From positions 1 to 52,099 of IMG/VR virus record IMGVR_UViG_3300047318_000360: a stretch of DNA of 52,099 nt. The stretch is one strand, 5' to 3'. Made by a program: the position numbers and the translations under genes. This stretch comes from a virus. Within the stretch, counting starts at the first letter, position 1, and each line of letters opens with the position of its first letter. The notes beneath the pieces were generated by a model. It made no database searches. It saw nothing but the letters and a program-made list of their open reading frames with translations, and was not told the DNA's origin. Positions 17,444 to 39,531 of the stretch are shown here, one piece after another.

Positions 17444-19000
17444 ATGCAAATTACTGAACTCGCCCCGTTTATCAGCTGTGTATGTGGTCCTAACGAATTT
17501 CAAGAAGCTTTGAATAAGGGTTACAAAGAGATCTATATCGTTTCAAACAAGGGTACCATTTTGAAGCATCATCAACTGCGTGGCGAAAATCGTTTCGTTC
17601 GTGTTAAGGTTGATAAGATTCCAGGGTTTACTATCCCTCAAACTGAAGTGGAAATCAAAGAGAGTATGAACTTCCTGCCAGCAGGTAAGATTCCTTTCAG
17701 CCTCTACGAACAGATCGAAGCATTCTTCCGTAAGGTTATTCAAGTGCGTGGTACTGCATTGGAAGCAATGATCTTTATCTTGTGGAACAAGGATCAAGGC
17801 TACCACTTGTTCGTTCCTGAGCAGCGTGTTGGTGCAGCTTCTGTGAGTTTCGATCCCAGTACTATCCCAGGTGGTTCCACTGTGGTTGTGAACGTTCACT
17901 CACACGGTCACATGAATTCGTTCTTCTCCGGTACCGATGATAACAACGATAAAGATCTCGTTCAGTTCTCGGGCGTATTCGGTAACTTCCAGACTGCAGT
18001 TCCGACCACCATCTGGCGCTTCAACTACTACCTGACTAAGTTCAAGTGTGAAACAAAAGATATCTTTGAGACTCCAGTCAAGGAAGGGATCGAAGTTCCT
18101 CAAGAATGGATGGATCAAGTTACTCAACCTACCTTCAGCCAGAACAAGGGAGGTCACAGTAACCTGGGAAACGTGGGAAGAAACACGGCAGAGCACCTCA
18201 AACCCTGGCAGTTTCAAAAGGGGATGAATCGTCAGGGTCAGCAGATTCAAGCGGGTCAGCCCGTCCTGTTTCCAACCGTAAGCAGCGTAGAGAAGAGAAA
18301 CGCTCAAGAAGATCTTCTGGGCGGTAAAGATACTCCTTTCATTGGTTTTGAACCAGATGAATCTTCGTTCAGTGCTGACGTTAGCCCTTCTACTCCTCAT
18401 CCAAATTTCACCCCTCCTAAGATGCCTGGCATCGTTTGGAAATGGGATAATGAAAAGGGTCAGTATCGTAACGTAGCAGGTACTGAAGAAGAGAACGATC
18501 CTGAAGCAATTCACTTCGATGGTACTCCTTCCGTGGAAGATGAAATTAACGATGCAGCAACAGCAGCTTTCATGGCCGCTATCAACAGTAGCGATGAGGC
18601 ATTTGCGCATCTGAGAGAAGTTGATGCTGAGGAGGCTGACTCGGGTCAACTGGGAAAGCCTCACGGAATAACTCCGGAAGGAGTGGAGCTAAAGTCATTG
18701 AGCTTGCCCAACGAATCAGGGAACTTAGAAGCTCCAGGTGATCACATTGAAGGTTGGAGTGAGGATATTGCTATCCAGTATGAAGCAATCAATTCACGCT
18801 ATGGCGTAGACGTTGCTGATGCTTGGTGGGGTATTGATTCGGAAATGCACAACCTTCATGAGCATCCGTTGCTTCTTACGAGTCTCATGGGGGATATGTA
18901 CAATCTCCTCAGTGATGATGACAAGTTCAACTTCTTTACGGATATGATCTCTAATCTTCCTGAGAAGTATCTTCAGCAGATTCAAGCGAACGGTCTCTAA
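17444..19000 (+). CDS. JAB/JAMM metalloprotease, PRTRC protein A-like (518 aa)
   Basis: The N-terminal ~230 residues form a JAB/MPN-type domain: NVHSHGHMNSFFSGTDDNND (150-169) supplies His152, His154, Ser162 and Asp165 of the JAMM zinc site, and Glu107 in LEAMIFILW is the likely catalytic acid. The SHG-x-M-x-x-FFS-x-x-D form and the following GVFGNFQ and PTTIWRF segments are those of PRTRC protein A. Such enzymes trim Ubl precursors or remove Ubls from targets. A further ~290 residues are low-complexity, Pro/Gly/Gln-rich then acidic, ending in a helical domain, which is much longer than the JAB core needs. Confidence 0.82.
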   Translation: MQITELAPFISCVCGPNEFQEALNKGYKEIYIVSNKGTILKHHQLRGENRFVRVKVDKIPGFTIPQTEVEIKESMNFLPAGKIPFSLYEQIEAFFRKVIQVRGTALEAMIFILWNKDQGYHLFVPEQRVGAASVSFDPSTIPGGSTVVVNVHSHGHMNSFFSGTDDNNDKDLVQFSGVFGNFQTAVPTTIWRFNYYLTKFKCETKDIFETPVKEGIEVPQEWMDQVTQPTFSQNKGGHSNLGNVGRNTAEHLKPWQFQKGMNRQGQQIQAGQPVLFPTVSSVEKRNAQEDLLGGKDTPFIGFEPDESSFSADVSPSTPHPNFTPPKMPGIVWKWDNEKGQYRNVAGTEEENDPEAIHFDGTPSVEDEINDAATAAFMAAINSSDEAFAHLREVDAEEADSGQLGKPHGITPEGVELKSLSLPNESGNLEAPGDHIEGWSEDIAIQYEAINSRYGVDVADAWWGIDSEMHNLHEHPLLLTSLMGDMYNLLSDDDKFNFFTDMISNLPEKYLQQIQANGL

Positions 19001-19297: not shown

Positions 19298-19566
19298 GCG
19301 ATAAGCTATTTTTAAAAGATATACCTCCAGGTACTGTCATAAAAAGGGCAGATAGTGCAAATCATGCTATTTACTATATGTGTGTTGCTCCTCATGTATC
19401 TTTCCTAAAGAATACTGATGAAGACACAATGCATAGACCTATGAGATTAGATACCTTCGAAGTCTTAGGGTCTAAGGCATGGTTGCAGGTACCTTTCGAA
19501 AAAGTGGATGCGAAGATAACCATCATCGACCCAACCCATAAACCTCCAAAGTTATATAATGTTTAG
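19294..19566 (+). CDS. Unknown small protein (90 aa)
   Basis: ATG 19294 overlaps the previous stop (ATGA). The sequence is beta-rich with PPGTVIKR and HAIYYMCVAPH, reminiscent of a small barrel, but no family is recognised. It overlaps the E1-like gene by 8 nt, so translation of the two is probably coupled. A role in the Ubl system is suggested only by that packing. Confidence 0.6.
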   Translation: MSDKLFLKDIPPGTVIKRADSANHAIYYMCVAPHVSFLKNTDEDTMHRPMRLDTFEVLGSKAWLQVPFEKVDAKITIIDPTHKPPKLYNV

Positions 19567-20989
19567 ATATACACCTCAAACTATTCCCACCAATATCTTT
19601 GTGATTGGTGGAGGCGGTACTGGCTCCCGACTGATGCCAATGCTGGTTCAGTTCATTCGCTCTATCACTCGTGGTAAGAGTCCTATGGGCTGGCTGGAAA
19701 ATCCAACCATCTGGGTAGTGGATGATGACACTGTTGAATTGAAGAATTTGCTTCGTCAGAACTTCATCGACAAAGATGTTAATAAGCCAAAAGCTCAAGT
19801 GCTGGCTGAAAGGTATGGCCGTGCATACGACGTAGATGTGGTCCCTATCATCAAGCGCGTTGAAAGTTCGAATAGTGATTTTCGTACAGCTGTTCAGGAA
19901 GTTCTTTCAGCAAGACAACTGGCAGGACAGCAAGCGCCTAATCTTGCAGCAGTATTGAACAGTTCCATTGTTATCAGCTGTGTAGATTCCGCTGCAGCTC
20001 GTCGTAACATTCTGAATAACTTCATCGTGACCTCAATTAGTCATACTAATCAAGGATGTTTCTTTATCGATGCTGGTAACGAAGACTCTTTCGGTCAGGT
20101 TAACTTCTTTACACCGACAGTTGTTTCTGAAGGGGACGTTTATAATGGTCTTCCTGAGAACCAAAAAGTCCCAAAGATGGTCGGATCTATTTGTGATATT
20201 AACTTCCTCCCAATGGACGTTAAATATTATCGAGATCTGGTAGACACTGTTAGTACTGCGTCATGTGCTGATCTAAATCAGACCCTGGCTATTAATGCTA
20301 TTATGGCTACTACCATTATGGGTATTGTTCAGAACTACTACTACCGTAAGCCTTTTCAGTATAACTGTGTACGTTTCAGTCTTGATGGTGCTAATGCGAC
20401 AGAGTACTGCACCTTTAATAGCCTTAAACGTAATGCACTTGAATACAATGCTGTTACCAGTTTTATGTATGGCTCGGTGAAGGTAAAAGAGAAGAATAAC
20501 TTAAACACTACCTTGACATTCGGTAGACAGCTTCAGTATGTAGATCTTTATGCTGGGGTAGCTGTTAAGTTACTTCAGAAGATTGGATCAGATAAAGTTG
20601 AAGCTGAACGCTTGGCTAAGGAAGAAGAAGATCGTCTTAAAGCTGAGGAAGCCCTAACTAAGAAAGCAATGGCATCCGAGGCCAGTATTGCGAGGCTTAA
20701 GTCTAAGCGTAAGGATATGAACCGTAGTACTGAGTTGAAGGTACTGGTAGAGGAGGAAGGTGTACCAGTCGGTACTACTGTGGAGGTGATGACAGCTAAC
20801 CCTGTGCCACTGCCACCATCAGTAGAGGCATCAACTGCAGCTTCACGTAACTCACGTAGGCGCAATCCAAATGTCACTACAGGTCTTCCTCCAGTGGAAG
20901 TTCCACAAACTTGGATTCAACCAGTAGATGTAGACTCCGAAGCTATGAATCGAGCAATCGAATCTGTAACAGCTTTGCGTAATCGTTAA
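19559..20989 (+). CDS. E1-like adenylating enzyme, ThiF/PRTRC ThiF-like (476 aa)
   Basis: ThiF/E1 domain: nucleotide-binding loop VIGGGGTGSR (15-24), acidic pocket VVDDDTVELKNLLRQNF (53-69) with the Arg and Gln that grip ATP, DVNKPKAQ, and SCVDSAAARR (140-149). It adenylates the C-terminus of a Ubl or ThiS-like protein. TASCADLNQTLAINA (233-247) matches the region I associate with the catalytic Cys of PRTRC ThiF proteins, so Cys236 is the likely thioester site. The last ~130 residues are a charged helix and a Pro/Ser-rich tail beyond the usual domain. It ends the operon and is followed by a terminator. Confidence 0.85.
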   Translation: MFRYTPQTIPTNIFVIGGGGTGSRLMPMLVQFIRSITRGKSPMGWLENPTIWVVDDDTVELKNLLRQNFIDKDVNKPKAQVLAERYGRAYDVDVVPIIKRVESSNSDFRTAVQEVLSARQLAGQQAPNLAAVLNSSIVISCVDSAAARRNILNNFIVTSISHTNQGCFFIDAGNEDSFGQVNFFTPTVVSEGDVYNGLPENQKVPKMVGSICDINFLPMDVKYYRDLVDTVSTASCADLNQTLAINAIMATTIMGIVQNYYYRKPFQYNCVRFSLDGANATEYCTFNSLKRNALEYNAVTSFMYGSVKVKEKNNLNTTLTFGRQLQYVDLYAGVAVKLLQKIGSDKVEAERLAKEEEDRLKAEEALTKKAMASEASIARLKSKRKDMNRSTELKVLVEEEGVPVGTTVEVMTANPVPLPPSVEASTAASRNSRRRNPNVTTGLPPVEVPQTWIQPVDVDSEAMNRAIESVTALRNR

Positions 20990-24208: not shown

Positions 24209-24996
24209 CCTTTAGCCTTACGAGGAGTGTGGTCGAAGTAAACGCTACGAACTCCAGACCCTCTGAATTTATTAGCTGAAACAACTCTATGATCAGGGGA
24301 TACTATACGTTCCATAAACTTGTTATTACCTTCTAAATGATGACGAAACATAGCATTTGTATCAGCCTTCAAAAAGCTCTTAGGGTTATAAACTGCCATA
24401 TCGTATGTTTTAGAAATCGTATCTTGAGCTTTATTATACTTTTCAGTTAGTTCTGGTGTAGGCGAGTTAGATTTTAAGTATTTACTTTCATCTAGTCTAG
24501 CATTCTGATGGCGTTTGACAACAACTGGAATACGTTTTATTACAGCTTGATTAGGATACTTCTGTAAAAGATTCTTACCAGAAGGTTCTACTACCCTGTT
24601 TGGAGGATTAGATCCTGAAGTACCTGGATGGGTATGTAAATTATCATTAACTGAAGATCCTGCTCTACGTAGTTTATGTTCTTGACCTTTAATAACATTG
24701 GACTCTATTCTGCCAGAATCATTTACTCTAGTACTAAATTCAAAACCTTTAGATCCTCCATGTTTATCGCTTATACTCTTTAACTTGTTTATAGTATTAT
24801 GATTTACATCTCCTAACTTAGCTCGACCTTCTTGAAGAGCTTTACCAGTTAACGCATCCCCTCTTCCAGACCGAAGATTACGCACAGCGTATTTCCATGT
24901 ACTCGTGTGGTCAGGTATAACTCCTACGGCCTTAGCCATCTGTCTGGCCTTAAGCGCGTTGAGGGCTACTTTTTCTAAGTATTTGTTGTCGTTCAT
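24205..24996 (-). CDS. Protein with LEKVA N-terminus and degenerate JAB-like motif (263 aa)
   Basis: Opens with MNDNKYLEKVALNAL, the tag shared with other virion-region proteins. In the middle, a strand pair (GFEFSTRV...) is followed by NLHTHPGTSG (119-128) and PSGKNL (138-143), which resembles the JAMM site H-x-H-P...PS-x-x-D but with Asn142 where the third metal ligand Asp should be. It may be an inactive or altered JAB domain. The C-terminal part is basic. It overlaps both neighbouring genes by 4 nt. Confidence 0.5.
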   Translation of the reverse strand: MNDNKYLEKVALNALKARQMAKAVGVIPDHTSTWKYAVRNLRSGRGDALTGKALQEGRAKLGDVNHNTINKLKSISDKHGGSKGFEFSTRVNDSGRIESNVIKGQEHKLRRAGSSVNDNLHTHPGTSGSNPPNRVVEPSGKNLLQKYPNQAVIKRIPVVVKRHQNARLDESKYLKSNSPTPELTEKYNKAQDTISKTYDMAVYNPKSFLKADTNAMFRHHLEGNNKFMERIVSPDHRVVSANKFRGSGVRSVYFDHTPRKAKG

Positions 24997-25877
24997 AATT
25001 TACTCTTGTCAATTCCTGGAGCTATACCCCAGTTCAGTAGTGCTTGTCTGCGTCTAGGTTGTACACTCAAGTCTGATAGTGTAGGATCAGCTTTAGTTAA
25101 CTGTGCCAAATGTCGTGCTTTGAAGCTAATCCAACGTTTGATCTGACGCTCATCATCTGGAGTTCTTTTTCCAGCAGAGTATCCTTGGTACCAATCAAAC
25201 CACCCCATAGGAGCTGTTTTAGGATCTATCCATTTCTTTGGCCATTCACTCATACTAGCGTCCACATGGAAGTAGTTAGCTTCTCCAGGGTCTTTATGAA
25301 AGTATTGCTTGGCTAATACTCCTAGCTGTCGCATCTCTGAAGGTGATAGGTCTGGCTGGAAACGGTCTTCCAACTCACTGGCAACTTTGTCTAAGAATCG
25401 ATTAGAGCCCTTCAGAGACGTTAGAACCTTCTCACGCTGGGTAGCTATGGACCTAGCTGATTTAACGTCCTGTAGGGCCTCTGAGAGGCTTCTCCATCGA
25501 TACTTACGGCTGTCCCCATCATCACCAAGCTTAGATTTATCCATTTGGTCATAATCAGCCACATACCATCTAGTCTCACTACCACGAAACTTCAGGTGAC
25601 GGTCATCCTTCTTACCGAGCCCACCTTGTTCTTTGAAGGTGATATTTGTCTTCTTCAGGTTCTTTACCTTGATGCCTACTTCTTCGAGACACTCGTTCTC
25701 AGCAGCTTCTGACTCGGTCTGATCATCTACGCCACCTCCAGGGAAGGCGTACCACTGATCACCAGTGTCAGGATTCTTACACTTCATGATTAGAACCTTG
25801 TCGTCTTTTCTAATGACAACTTCGACTCTAGCACGGTAGGGAAGCTTTTCAGCAATCTTTGTTAGGTATGTGTTCAT
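24993..25877 (-). CDS. Nudix hydrolase with C-terminal conserved domain (294 aa)
   Basis: Residues 14-140 form a Nudix domain, box at 47-69: PGGGVDDQTESE then ENECLEEVGI. Relative to G-x5-E-x7-R-E-x-x-E-E the box is one residue shorter and has Gln and Asn at the first Glu and Arg, but the metal-binding ECLEE core is kept. It may cleave nucleotide or ADP-ribose-type diphosphates. From about 150 a separate domain with GWFDWYQGYSAGKR and DDERQIKRW resembles an uncharacterised family in large viruses. The chain begins with NTYLTKIAE, the shared N-terminal tag. A paralogue lies at 29458-29958. Confidence 0.75.
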   Translation of the reverse strand: MNTYLTKIAEKLPYRARVEVVIRKDDKVLIMKCKNPDTGDQWYAFPGGGVDDQTESEAAENECLEEVGIKVKNLKKTNITFKEQGGLGKKDDRHLKFRGSETRWYVADYDQMDKSKLGDDGDSRKYRWRSLSEALQDVKSARSIATQREKVLTSLKGSNRFLDKVASELEDRFQPDLSPSEMRQLGVLAKQYFHKDPGEANYFHVDASMSEWPKKWIDPKTAPMGWFDWYQGYSAGKRTPDDERQIKRWISFKARHLAQLTKADPTLSDLSVQPRRRQALLNWGIAPGIDKSKL

Positions 25878-26068
25878 AAAGAGTATTTTACCATGGAGAA
25901 GTGTCCAGAAAAAAACTGGACATCAAACGGACATTTCGGGGTTTGTCCAGTTTCTGTTTTAGGTATATTTATTGACGATGTAGAAATCAGTGTCCAAAAG
26001 CTAAAAAAACTGGACACCAAATTGGACGCACTTTTCTCCTGTGTCTATTGGGTGTTAGGTACCAAAAC

Positions 26069-26118
26069 TGTCCAAATGTCCAGAAATATTTCCCAATAGG
26101 GTACCCCACGAGAAAAAA
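26069..26118 (+). repeat. Perfect inverted repeat, left arm (50 bp)
   Basis: Exact reverse complement of 26271-26320. It contains two TGTCCA boxes, a CCCAATAGGG-like stretch and GGTACCCC. Confidence 0.95.
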
Positions 26119-26270
26119 TAAAAAATTTTCAAAGAAAACTTCTACGTCTCAAAAACCTGGGCAATTACCCTATATTATATATTTATAACTAATAACTATT
26201 AATATTATATAGAGGGGATTTCGGCAAACTGACATTTTGAAGGTATATATTTTTCCAAAAAGTTTTTTAC

Positions 26271-26320
26271 TTTTTTCTCGTGGGGTACCCTATTGGGAAA
26301 TATTTCTGGACATTTGGACA
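26271..26320 (-). repeat. Perfect inverted repeat, right arm (50 bp)
   Basis: Exact reverse complement of 26069-26118. Imperfect complementarity goes on inward through A/T runs on both sides. Confidence 0.95.
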
Positions 26321-26503
26321 CTTTAACCATTCCTTCAGTAATACCTATTGGGTAAAAATGCGTCCAATTTGATGTCCAGTTTTTTCCAATTTTGGACAGT
26401 GATTTCTAAACTATTAATAAACACAGCTAAAACAAGAATTGGACAATGGTCCAAATGTCCGGTCAGTGTCCAGTTTTTCTAGATAATTTAATTACTTTAA
26501 TAG

Positions 26504-26533
26504 TTGACAGATATTATATAACCGAGATATAAT
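26504..26533 (+). promoter_or_regulatory. Perfect-consensus sigma70 promoter
   Basis: TTGACA (26504-26509), 18-nt spacer, TATAAT (26528-26533). Both hexamers match the host consensus fully. It lies 26 bp right of the palindrome and points toward the HNH gene at 26564, and would be active straight after infection. Confidence 0.75.
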
Positions 26534-26563: not shown

Positions 26564-27088
26564 ATGGAAATTTTAGAAAAAAAACGTGGTAGAAAAAAAG
26601 AACTTCTGGAAAATAAGTTCAATAGACTTATAGAAAAAACTGATACCTGTTGGATATGGATGGGTGCTGTTAATAGTAAGGGGTATGGCCTAGTACTAGA
26701 TGATGCTGGTAAATTACAACTTGTACATAGACTTTTACATGAACGAGTAAATGGGAAAATTCCACCTAATGCTTCTGTTCTACATAGTTGTGATAATCCA
26801 TCCTGTTGTAACCCAGTGCATCTAAGAGTAGGTTCTTCAAAAGAAAACATGGATGAAAAAATCTCTAAAAATAGGGATCATTCTAATAGGGGTACTAACC
26901 ACTGGAATAATAGATTTACTGATGACCAGATACTTGCAATAAGAAATGATACTAGAACTCAAATTGAAATTGCAAAAGAGTATGGTATATCTCAACCTCA
27001 CGTATCTATTATAAAAAATTCCAAAACTAGAAAAATTTTAGGTATCAAGCAAGAGCCTCGTCAGCTTGAGCTTCAATTTAGCTTCTGA
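26564..27088 (+). CDS. HNH homing endonuclease (174 aa)
   Basis: ATG follows AGGAAGACTT. The HNH core covers residues 29-95: CWIWMGAVNSKGYG, His55-Arg56, then HSCDNPSCCNPVHLRVG with His74, Asn83 and His86. After it, ENMDE and a helix-turn-helix (QIEIAKEYGISQPHVSII) probably bind the target site. It is a free-standing nuclease gene that copies itself into sites lacking it. The N-terminus is Lys-rich. It stands beside the palindrome under a host-type promoter. Confidence 0.88.
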   Translation: MEILEKKRGRKKELLENKFNRLIEKTDTCWIWMGAVNSKGYGLVLDDAGKLQLVHRLLHERVNGKIPPNASVLHSCDNPSCCNPVHLRVGSSKENMDEKISKNRDHSNRGTNHWNNRFTDDQILAIRNDTRTQIEIAKEYGISQPHVSIIKNSKTRKILGIKQEPRQLELQFSF

Positions 27089-27338: not shown

Positions 27339-27896
27339 GTGAACATAAATGAAATTCTACTCAGTCAGATCATCGAAACTGACAGTCCATTGACTATCCC
27401 GAAGTTAATCTCGGAAACTTTCAAAGTGAAAAACAACTACTATGTTGTAACAGATGGGAACGTATTCAACTACTATCCGATAAAGGTAGAAGTAACACCT
27501 GAAGACAAACCATTTTTTCGCTTAGAGAAATCAGCTCCAGTGCTACTGGAAGGTGTGGCAATTATAGACAAGAAAGTCTATGCCGTACCATTATCCGATC
27601 TCATGCGAAGACTTGTACGAAAATCCCGAGAAATTAACTTAGAGGTAGTAAATGGAAGCTTTAACACTAGTAGCGATGCCACAGCAGCAGATTCAACCCT
27701 CCCCCCTTCCCCTGACGTTGCTGGCACAAAAGCCATTCAACCTATTGTCAAACGAAGATCTAACCGAGAAATTGAAGTGGAAATCGGTGAAGCTGCTGAC
27801 ATTGCTTGGCAAGACCAAGTCAGAGCACTACTCAGTGTTGTATCTGAGGAAGAAGGGTTCGGCGGGGAGGAGTGGGAAATTACGGACGCTGCATAA
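27339..27896 (+). CDS. Unknown protein overlapping the reverse transcriptase (185 aa)
   Basis: GTG start with weak upstream GGAT. The N-terminal ~105 residues look like a folded beta-rich domain (NNYYVVTDGNVFNYYPIKVE). From about residue 105 it becomes Ser/Pro-rich then acidic, exactly where the reverse transcriptase reading frame begins on the same DNA (27652-27896, +1 frame). No family is recognised. Either both frames are used or the two are joined by a frameshift. Confidence 0.5.
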   Translation: MNINEILLSQIIETDSPLTIPKLISETFKVKNNYYVVTDGNVFNYYPIKVEVTPEDKPFFRLEKSAPVLLEGVAIIDKKVYAVPLSDLMRRLVRKSREINLEVVNGSFNTSSDATAADSTLPPSPDVAGTKAIQPIVKRRSNREIEVEIGEAADIAWQDQVRALLSVVSEEEGFGGEEWEITDAA

Positions 27897-28800
27897 TCCG
27901 GATGGTTTGATGAGGGTTGTTCAATTCAAAATCTTGAAACAACTCTTGGAAAAAATCGAAGTACCGGAATATATCCACGCGTTCGAGAAAGAAAGGAGCA
28001 TCCCAGCAATGGCTGCTCTTCACGTAGGTAAACAAGTTGTCGTAAGTCTTGATCTTAAAGACTTCTTCACTTCGATTAAACAGTATCATGTTGACCAGAT
28101 CTTCCAGCATCTAGGCATTGCAGAAAAACCTGCAAGGACTCTATCTGAGCTCTGCACCTACAAGAGTTTTGTTCCACAAGGAGCTTTGACTAGTCCAAAG
28201 CTTAGTAATATCGTAACAGCATTAACATTCGGCCCTCACATTAAAAACTATTGTGATACCAAAGAGTATACCTTATCCATATATGCGGACGATATCACAA
28301 TCTCGTGTGATCAAAAATTAGATGGTCAAGAAGGACGTGATACTGTCACCCAACTAATTACCTTTGTTACCGAACAAGTTCAGCGATTTGGTTTCAAGAT
28401 CAATCGTGACAAAATTAAGGTAATGAAAACCTACCAACGACAATACGTATGTGGAGCCGTTGTGAACCAAAAAGTCAATATGCAAAAACGGGAGCGTCAC
28501 AAACTCCGAGCCATTGTCTATAACTGTGAAAAGAATGGTATCAAAGCAGAGGCAGAGAAGAATAGCCTTTCACCAGATCAGTTCGCATCAAAGATAATGG
28601 GGCGACTTAATTGGTTCGCTCAGCTTAATCCTGAAGCTGGGGAACGTGGAAAAGAAAAGTTTAAACAAGTCTGTGCGGATCAAATAACGTGCCCCACAGC
28701 CGAGACTGAAAGCGTAAAAGAAATAGGGCCGCTAGACAGTCTACCTCAACTCCCACCAACATTGGCAGAAGCAGTAGCAGCCGATACACCGTGGAATTGA
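27652..28800 (+). CDS. Retron-like reverse transcriptase (382 aa)
   Basis: All core reverse-transcriptase motifs are present: SLDLKDFFTSI (132-142) with the first Asp, VPQGALTSPKLSN (174-186), the YADD active site (211-214), FGFKINRDK (247-254) and a thumb-like basic region. PQG-x-x-TSP-x-LSN is the retron/group-II form and not the diversity-generating form. The retron hallmarks are altered: MAALH (120-124) where N-A-x-x-H is usual and VCG (266-268) where VTG is usual. The start at 27652 has a good AGAGGT site. The last 50 residues are Pro- and acid-rich. Likely a retron or stand-alone phage reverse transcriptase. Confidence 0.82.
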   Translation: MEALTLVAMPQQQIQPSPLPLTLLAQKPFNLLSNEDLTEKLKWKSVKLLTLLGKTKSEHYSVLYLRKKGSAGRSGKLRTLHNPDGLMRVVQFKILKQLLEKIEVPEYIHAFEKERSIPAMAALHVGKQVVVSLDLKDFFTSIKQYHVDQIFQHLGIAEKPARTLSELCTYKSFVPQGALTSPKLSNIVTALTFGPHIKNYCDTKEYTLSIYADDITISCDQKLDGQEGRDTVTQLITFVTEQVQRFGFKINRDKIKVMKTYQRQYVCGAVVNQKVNMQKRERHKLRAIVYNCEKNGIKAEAEKNSLSPDQFASKIMGRLNWFAQLNPEAGERGKEKFKQVCADQITCPTAETESVKEIGPLDSLPQLPPTLAEAVAADTPWN

Positions 28801-29457: not shown

Positions 29458-29958
29458 ATGCAAGAAGTAATAAATATACCAACAGAACTTCTTCCAATGC
29501 GCAAACGGGTAGAAGTCATAATCAAGCGGATAACTAATAAGTACCTTTTGATATTTGCTGCGTATCCAAAAGAAACCCCAGATTGGCGGGGGTTCCCAGG
29601 TGGTGGTAATGATGGCAAAACCGATGAAGAAACTTGCATCGAAGAAGTTCTCGAAGAGATCGGTATGAAAATCAAATGCGTCCAAAGCCTTGGCATCGCT
29701 ATGGATGAGCCCCACGTTTCCGCAAAAGGAAATCATCGGGCCGAATTTAGTGGATCAACCACTAAATGGTACTCGGCTATGTATGAAGGCATGGACGATT
29801 CAAAGCTCGGAGCCGATGGTGATATCCGGAAGTATGAATGGCTCTCATATGAAGAAGCTGTTGAAGCTTTGCGTAAGAGCAATGGTCCAAGGGTTGCATA
29901 TCAGCTTATGGCTCTGACCAATCTGAAAAATAAACCCCCAAGAATGCCTCAGTTCTAA
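29458..29958 (+). CDS. Nudix hydrolase, stand-alone (166 aa)
   Basis: ATG follows AGGAGATAATC. The Nudix box is at residues 48-70: PGGGNDGKTDEE then IEEVLEEIGM, with the same one-residue shortening seen in the fusion protein at 24993-25877; the E-E-V-L-E-E metal site is kept. Further shared stretches are WYSAMYEGMDDSKLG versus WYVADYDQMDKSKLG, and DGDIRKYEW versus DGDSRKYRW. So the two are paralogues, and this one lacks the second domain and the N-terminal tag. Substrate unknown; ADP-ribose or another nucleotide diphosphate derivative is typical of the superfamily. Confidence 0.82.
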   Translation: MQEVINIPTELLPMRKRVEVIIKRITNKYLLIFAAYPKETPDWRGFPGGGNDGKTDEETCIEEVLEEIGMKIKCVQSLGIAMDEPHVSAKGNHRAEFSGSTTKWYSAMYEGMDDSKLGADGDIRKYEWLSYEEAVEALRKSNGPRVAYQLMALTNLKNKPPRMPQF

Positions 29959-39462: not shown

Positions 39463-39531
39463 TATTAAAACTCCTATTTTATTAATCGATTAGTATCCAT
39501 CGCATTCTGTGCGCTAGACGAAATTTGAACT

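Follow-up and report, generated by a model that had tools for sequence, protein, structure and literature searches.

A mirror-symmetric palindrome recurring at orthologous positions in ~180-kb tailed phages as a proposed replication origin

The window analysed here is the entire IMG/VR virus record IMGVR_UViG_3300047318_000360 (52,099 bases), which contains a long, gap-free palindrome whose arms carry inverted arrays of TGTCCA boxes around an AT-rich core. Related sites recur at orthologous positions in other phages, and we propose, with a probability of about 0.72, that the palindrome serves a lytic-type tailed phage of about 180 kb as one of a number of replication origins. Going slightly beyond even odds, we also favor a broader proposal, in which a ~180-kb myophage lineage would carry three to five regularly spaced origins of the same design, all fired by one primase-helicase, with the positions inherited and the sequences, including the boxes, changing in step (TGTCCA boxes in one branch and GGTTACA boxes in Salmonella phage Arash). 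A sequence-only reading of the window had already described an origin-like layout, which is now strengthened because the mirror-image boxes are conserved, the core is a stability minimum, the positions are fixed, one copy lies in the replication gene cluster, and the spacing is regular; two other parts of that reading fail, divergent transcription being particular to one of the sites and the GC skew showing no turn at the sites of the relative examined for it.

Anatomy of the palindrome

Symmetry was scanned at all centers in the window with a half-width of 284 bases. The best center, 26194.5, has 187 of 284 matching pairs, compared with 110 for the next independent center and a mean of 73.7 (standard deviation, 8.0), supporting the single, gap-free center described from the sequence alone. 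The arms (25911-26118 and 26271-26478) match at 159 of 208 positions with a net gap of zero. Two further elements of that description, the perfect 50-bp inner repeat and the AT-rich loop, are confirmed, the inner run being exactly 50 bp long with its left-arm copy ending at 26118 and the loop between the arms being 75% AT.

Exact TGTCCA/TGGACA boxes occur 30 times in the 52 kb, and 13 of them fall between 25902 and 26472, a density of 13 in 577 bp versus 17 in the remaining 51.5 kb. The count of 13 exact boxes had been given before for the arms, where 12 are indeed found (25911-26478), but the thirteenth (25902-25907) lies just beyond the left arm. Nine more matches with one mismatch, some of them probably due to chance, lie within 25911-26478.

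Recurrence at orthologous positions

The window terminase has 50.6% identity to that of Salmonella phage Arash (180,819 bases) and about 42% identity to those of the Vibrio phages D69, D148, and D181 (~187 kb). IMG/VR relatives were gathered by terminase, yielding the 184,920-base contig G004 and others, and further relatives were gathered with a pattern built from the shared box module and with DNA primase searches. Contigs G007 and G011, from one sample, show 81% amino acid identity to G004, and G009 shows about 100%; a second clade (G010, G014, G015, G016, G018, and G020) shows 45 to 48%, and the terminase identity of G005 and G006 is 61%. The genomes hosting the palindrome are best explained as ~180-kb lytic-type tailed phages.

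G004 has four such palindromes, centered at 40004.5 (site A), 76669.5 (site B), 131532.5 (site C), and 183156 (site D), and orthologous copies are found in G007/G011 and in all six contigs of the second clade. We assigned site orthology by flanking genes, according to which the window copy is site B, equivalent to 76669 in G004 and 173339 in Arash. Site A is present in G004 and the G007/G011 branch, site B lies beside the reverse transcriptase/77213 gene, site C beside a DHH-family gene, and site D has the split DNA polymerase on one side and the primase gene on the other in G004, G014, G015, Arash, and D69. Orthologous copies are 84 to 89% identical, paralogous copies 62 to 76%.

These places and identities argue against a mobile element. 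A foldback element resembling a miniature inverted-repeat transposable element, or a recombination hot spot, spread within the genome could produce several copies of 62 to 76% identity per genome and the near-identical copies in Arash, but it is contradicted by orthologous positions over about 50% protein divergence and by orthologues being closer than paralogues, and no transposase is known to be linked, leaving this explanation very improbable. The element is instead an old resident, its places being orthologous even between phages whose proteins are only ~50% identical. The earlier reading had named arms dispersed through the genome by mobility as an outcome that would speak against an origin; the arms do recur, but at fixed orthologous positions.

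Both ends of the contigs G010 and G020 fall inside sites, as would happen when an assembler halts at repeats, which suggests that assemblies of these phages are broken by the repeated sites. Among the candidates that were rejected, a cluster of ACATTGAT near 39490 in G006 is without an AT core, and the short viral contigs G008, G012, and G013 match the pattern but contain no site. The box-module pattern gave 13 matches in bacterial genomes, none palindromic and only one reaching five boxes in 600 bp, which were taken as chance. In INPHARED, no DNA similarity to the window site or to a G004 site was found.

Conserved boxes and unconserved pairing

Comparison of orthologous sites shows changes at 5 of 252 box positions versus 299 of 2149 positions outside the boxes (Fisher P = 3.6e-10), and TGGACA has remained unchanged in 78 of 82 cases, the figure for all hexamers being 52%. 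The pairing between the arms behaves differently, with one-sided losses (114) exceeding gains (44). Conserved boxes without conserved arm pairing indicate DNA-binding sites and not a hairpin RNA or cruciform. A long hairpin RNA, suggested earlier from the sequence, or a cruciform with pairing as its function would fit the long gap-free symmetry, but compensatory double changes between the arms are at expectation (7 observed versus 7.2 expected), G-U mismatches (176) are no commoner than A-C (184), and Rfam gave no gathering match in the window, so that we consider this reading contradicted and hardly credible.

Box geometry and duplex stability

The box positions are mirror-symmetric about the center and rigid to 1 to 2 bp within clades. 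Their distances from the center are 122/164-166/188/196-198 in G014/G015/G018 and 152/195/219/227 in G004/G007/G011; a 0/43/66/75 module is common to both clades, the core being longer in G004/G007/G011, and the window boxes lie at 115, 123, 181, and 201. Boxes in the left arms are mostly forward (98 forward, 35 reverse) and those in the right arms mostly reverse (34 forward, 102 reverse).

Nearest-neighbor duplex stability was ranked over all 60-bp stretches. The site centers occupy the weakest ranks 1 to 4 in G004, 1 to 3 in G014 and G015, and 1 to 2 in G007, G011, and G018. In the window, the site center has rank 2, and rank 1 is the adjoining promoter-like stretch near 26512. The centers were thus among the weakest 60-bp duplexes in every genome ranked, and mostly the very weakest. 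For an unwinding element, a center with the weakest duplex in the genome is just what would be expected.

Sites in cultured phages and their spacing

In the cultured Salmonella phage Arash, a scan for long palindromes or TGTCCA gave no sites, and the sites surfaced only through duplex stability: the five weakest 60-bp stretches of its genome all prove to be copies of a single sequence (26715, 66462, 100218, 138565, and 173339). The copies are 84 to 97% alike over about 205 bp and carry GGTTACA boxes inverted around the core, and by orthology, site A corresponds to 138565, site B to 173339, and site D to 100218. Three related palindromic sites, with duplex-weakness ranks 4 to 6, are present in Vibrio phage D69 (67519, 125226, and 185421), and 125226 is the orthologue of site D. 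Positions have thus been kept and sequences have changed jointly, which would be expected of copies that are all read by a single trans-acting protein.

The Arash sites are 33.8 to 39.7 kb apart (coefficient of variation, 0.067), a regularity with a P of 7e-5 versus random placement. The corresponding values are 0.007 for the three sites of D69, 0.006 for the four sites of G004, and 0.05 for the three sites of G015, the last two tests sharing sites B, C, and D and therefore not being independent.

A candidate initiator and a possible mechanism

The phage primase, whose gene lies outside the window, has a zinc finger and a TOPRIM domain, and its C-terminal half contains a P-loop; Pfam indicated no helicase domain in this half. 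The best matches of the structure model are Cch (Z score, 12.4) and the SaPIBov1 Rep protein (Z score, 9.7), the model being of low confidence (predicted local distance difference test score, 57), so that the resemblance of the C-terminal half is a lead only. Site D is a few kilobases from the primase gene in G004, G014, G015, and Arash and less than 1 kb from it in D69, and sites A, B, and C are far from it. We consider the primase-helicase encoded beside site D the likeliest initiator, and it would be expected to bind the boxes.

From the anatomy, recurrence, positions, box conservation, weak core, and spacing, we infer origin activity and bidirectional firing. The phage initiator, with a zinc finger, a TOPRIM primase, an AAA+ helicase, and a C-terminal DNA-binding domain as its proposed domains, may assemble on the TGTCCA boxes of each arm, forming two complexes that mirror each other, and melt the AT core between the arms, the least stable DNA of the genome. 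Two outward-facing helicases would then be loaded and two forks would leave the site, with three to five roughly evenly spaced sites dividing the genome into 35- to 75-kb stretches that could be copied at once.

Weighing the origin against other functions

Several observations weigh against replication origins. The cumulative GC skew of G004 has no turn at the sites, contrary to the skew change that had been expected at the locus, and a strand-corrected test of four-fold sites in G004 gave no fork-direction signal. The Arash sites are not long palindromes but merely inverted boxes around a core, G005 and G006 are without site B at the orthologous place, and the number of sites per genome varies (3, 4, 5). 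The overlap between the G004 and G015 spacing tests and the poor primase model belong here as well. Divergent transcription, noted from the sequence as part of the layout, holds for the window copy with its flanking Nudix hydrolase and HNH genes, but it is particular to site B, the flanking genes being in tandem at sites A, C, and D.

The lack of a replication skew signal in G004 would suit the main rival, in which the sites are dispersed partition, segregation, or genome-organizing sites (parS-like or nucleoid-anchor) bound by a phage protein, with the AT core and the spacing serving bending or condensation; several identical sites that recur at regular intervals and keep their boxes are also compatible with it. 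However, unwinding and replication are favored by the centers being the weakest duplexes of the genome and by the presence, in every lineage, of one copy within the polymerase-primase cluster, and no partition gene was identified, though no systematic search for such genes was made. We regard an organizing function as unlikely, if worth keeping in mind.

Operator arrays through which a phage repressor or activator controls several operons are a more doubtful alternative still. The sites are intergenic, and the window copy has a strong sigma70-like promoter next to it, but the symmetry is the same everywhere regardless of whether the flanking genes diverge, several sites are hundreds of bases away from the next start codon, and a genome-wide minimum of duplex stability at the center is not something that a regulator would predict. 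Replication origins remain the reading that we prefer.

Genes around the sites

The features of site B and its neighbors are listed in Table 1. The near-consensus sigma70 promoter lies upstream of the HNH gene, inside the weakest 60-bp region of the window. The reverse transcriptase (PADLOC RT_III-A, E value 5e-68) has stayed next to site B in most relatives. Another open frame (27339-27896) overlaps the start of its gene, and a retron RNA could lie in the stretch ahead of the gene. Site B is flanked by two Nudix hydrolase genes, the left neighbor and a second one at 29458-29958, and the C-terminal part of the left one has relatives in several large phages. Farther away in the window, positions 17444-19000 and 19559-20989 hold a Prok-JAB protein gene adjoining a gene whose G004 orthologue (80412-81770) is ThiF/E1-like, a possible ubiquitin-like processing pair that is conserved through G004, G015, and Arash.

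At the other sites, a TROVE/Ro60 RNA-binding protein is encoded beside site C in the second clade (G014 L157:5535-7193; also G015 and G018), and a tRNA-His guanylyltransferase adjoins site D in G014. Separate genes encode an exonuclease/uracil-glycosylase-like part and a polymerase part of the family A DNA polymerase (G004 178560-182749, Arash 87636-89463, and D69 114611-116733), and the polymerase part appears to be split again in Arash and D69.

Table 1. Features of site B and neighboring genes in the window
Feature	Coordinates	Strand	Basis
Site B as a whole, inverted box arrays flanking an AT-rich core; proposed origin of replication	25902..26478	.	symmetry and comparison
Left arm, pairs with right arm at 159/208 positions, perfectly over the inner 50 bp	25911..26118	+	symmetry scan
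Right arm	26271..26478	-	symmetry scan
Weakest-duplex core, proposed unwinding element	26162..26221	.	duplex stability, rank 2 of window 60-bp stretches
TGTCCA box	25902..25907	+	exact match
TGTCCA box	25917..25922	-	exact match
TGTCCA box	25944..25949	+	exact match
TGTCCA box	25991..25996	+	exact match
TGTCCA box	26011..26016	-	exact match
TGTCCA box, inner tandem pair	26069..26074	+	exact match
TGTCCA box, inner tandem pair	26077..26082	+	exact match
TGTCCA box, inner tandem pair	26307..26312	-	exact match
TGTCCA box, inner tandem pair	26315..26320	-	exact match
TGTCCA box	26373..26378	+	exact match
TGTCCA box	26393..26398	-	exact match
TGTCCA box	26440..26445	-	exact match
TGTCCA box	26467..26472	+	exact match
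Sigma70-like promoter (TTGACA, 18 bp, TATAAT), neighbor outside right arm, not in conserved site	26504..26533	+	sequence
Nudix hydrolase gene, left neighbor, no homologue at this place in relatives	24993..25877	-	
HNH endonuclease gene, right neighbor	26564..27088	+	
Retron-type reverse transcriptase, synteny marker of site B	27652..28800	+	

Comparison with known systems

A literature search, limited in scope and not proving novelty, found no description of these repeated sites, and the Arash genome paper makes no mention of such repeats or origins. Descriptions of phage replication usually involve a single early origin or, for T4, several dissimilar origins that share no motif.

The P4 ori and crr elements contain short boxes in both orientations, as the phage sites do. 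PMC9611036, citing Ziegelin 1993, describes the P4 alpha protein as combining primase, helicase, and origin recognition in one protein, similar to the initiator proposed here. P4 differs in being small and having two elements, and its primase type is not the TOPRIM type of these phages.

In SaPI (Staphylococcus aureus pathogenicity island) and SCCmec (staphylococcal cassette chromosome mec) elements, Rep, Cch, Cch2, or relatives act as self-loading initiator helicases that recognize origin iterons by a C-terminal domain (PMC7581432). Short repeated boxes are shared with the phage sites, and the C-terminal half of the phage primase may resemble the fold of Cch and SaPIBov1 Rep, judging from the model. 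However, these elements have one origin beside rep, whereas a ~180-kb phage here has three to five distant, mirror-symmetric copies, and the phage box sequence is unrelated.

In phage ICP1, read depth indicates early bidirectional replication, and its satellite, the phage-inducible chromosomal island-like element (PLE), uses RepA and iterons (PMC7145576). Unlike the phages described here, ICP1 has a single early origin, and no repeated palindromic sites are reported for it. Phage T4, with a genome of ~170 kb, has at least five active origins (PMC3016281) and thereby resembles the several origins proposed for one phage of a similar size class (~180 kb), but the T4 origins have no common motif and start from transcript R-loops, whereas one design is found at all sites here.

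The OriS and OriL origins of herpes simplex virus (HSV) consist of inverted initiator boxes flanking an AT-rich spacer, with redundant copies, one OriL and two OriS, on each genome (PMC12543377). The phage sites, being inverted boxes around an AT spacer in several copies per genome, would work like them, without a claim of membership: HSV belongs to a different virus realm, its initiator UL9 is a superfamily 2 helicase, and two of its three origins are duplicated by lying in large repeats, whereas the phage copies are separate and regularly spaced. If the origin reading is true, these phages would provide a bacterial-virus counterpart of multiorigin replication with matching, evenly spaced origins, and phage Arash would offer a small system in culture for work on origin number, spacing, timing, and coevolution with the initiator.
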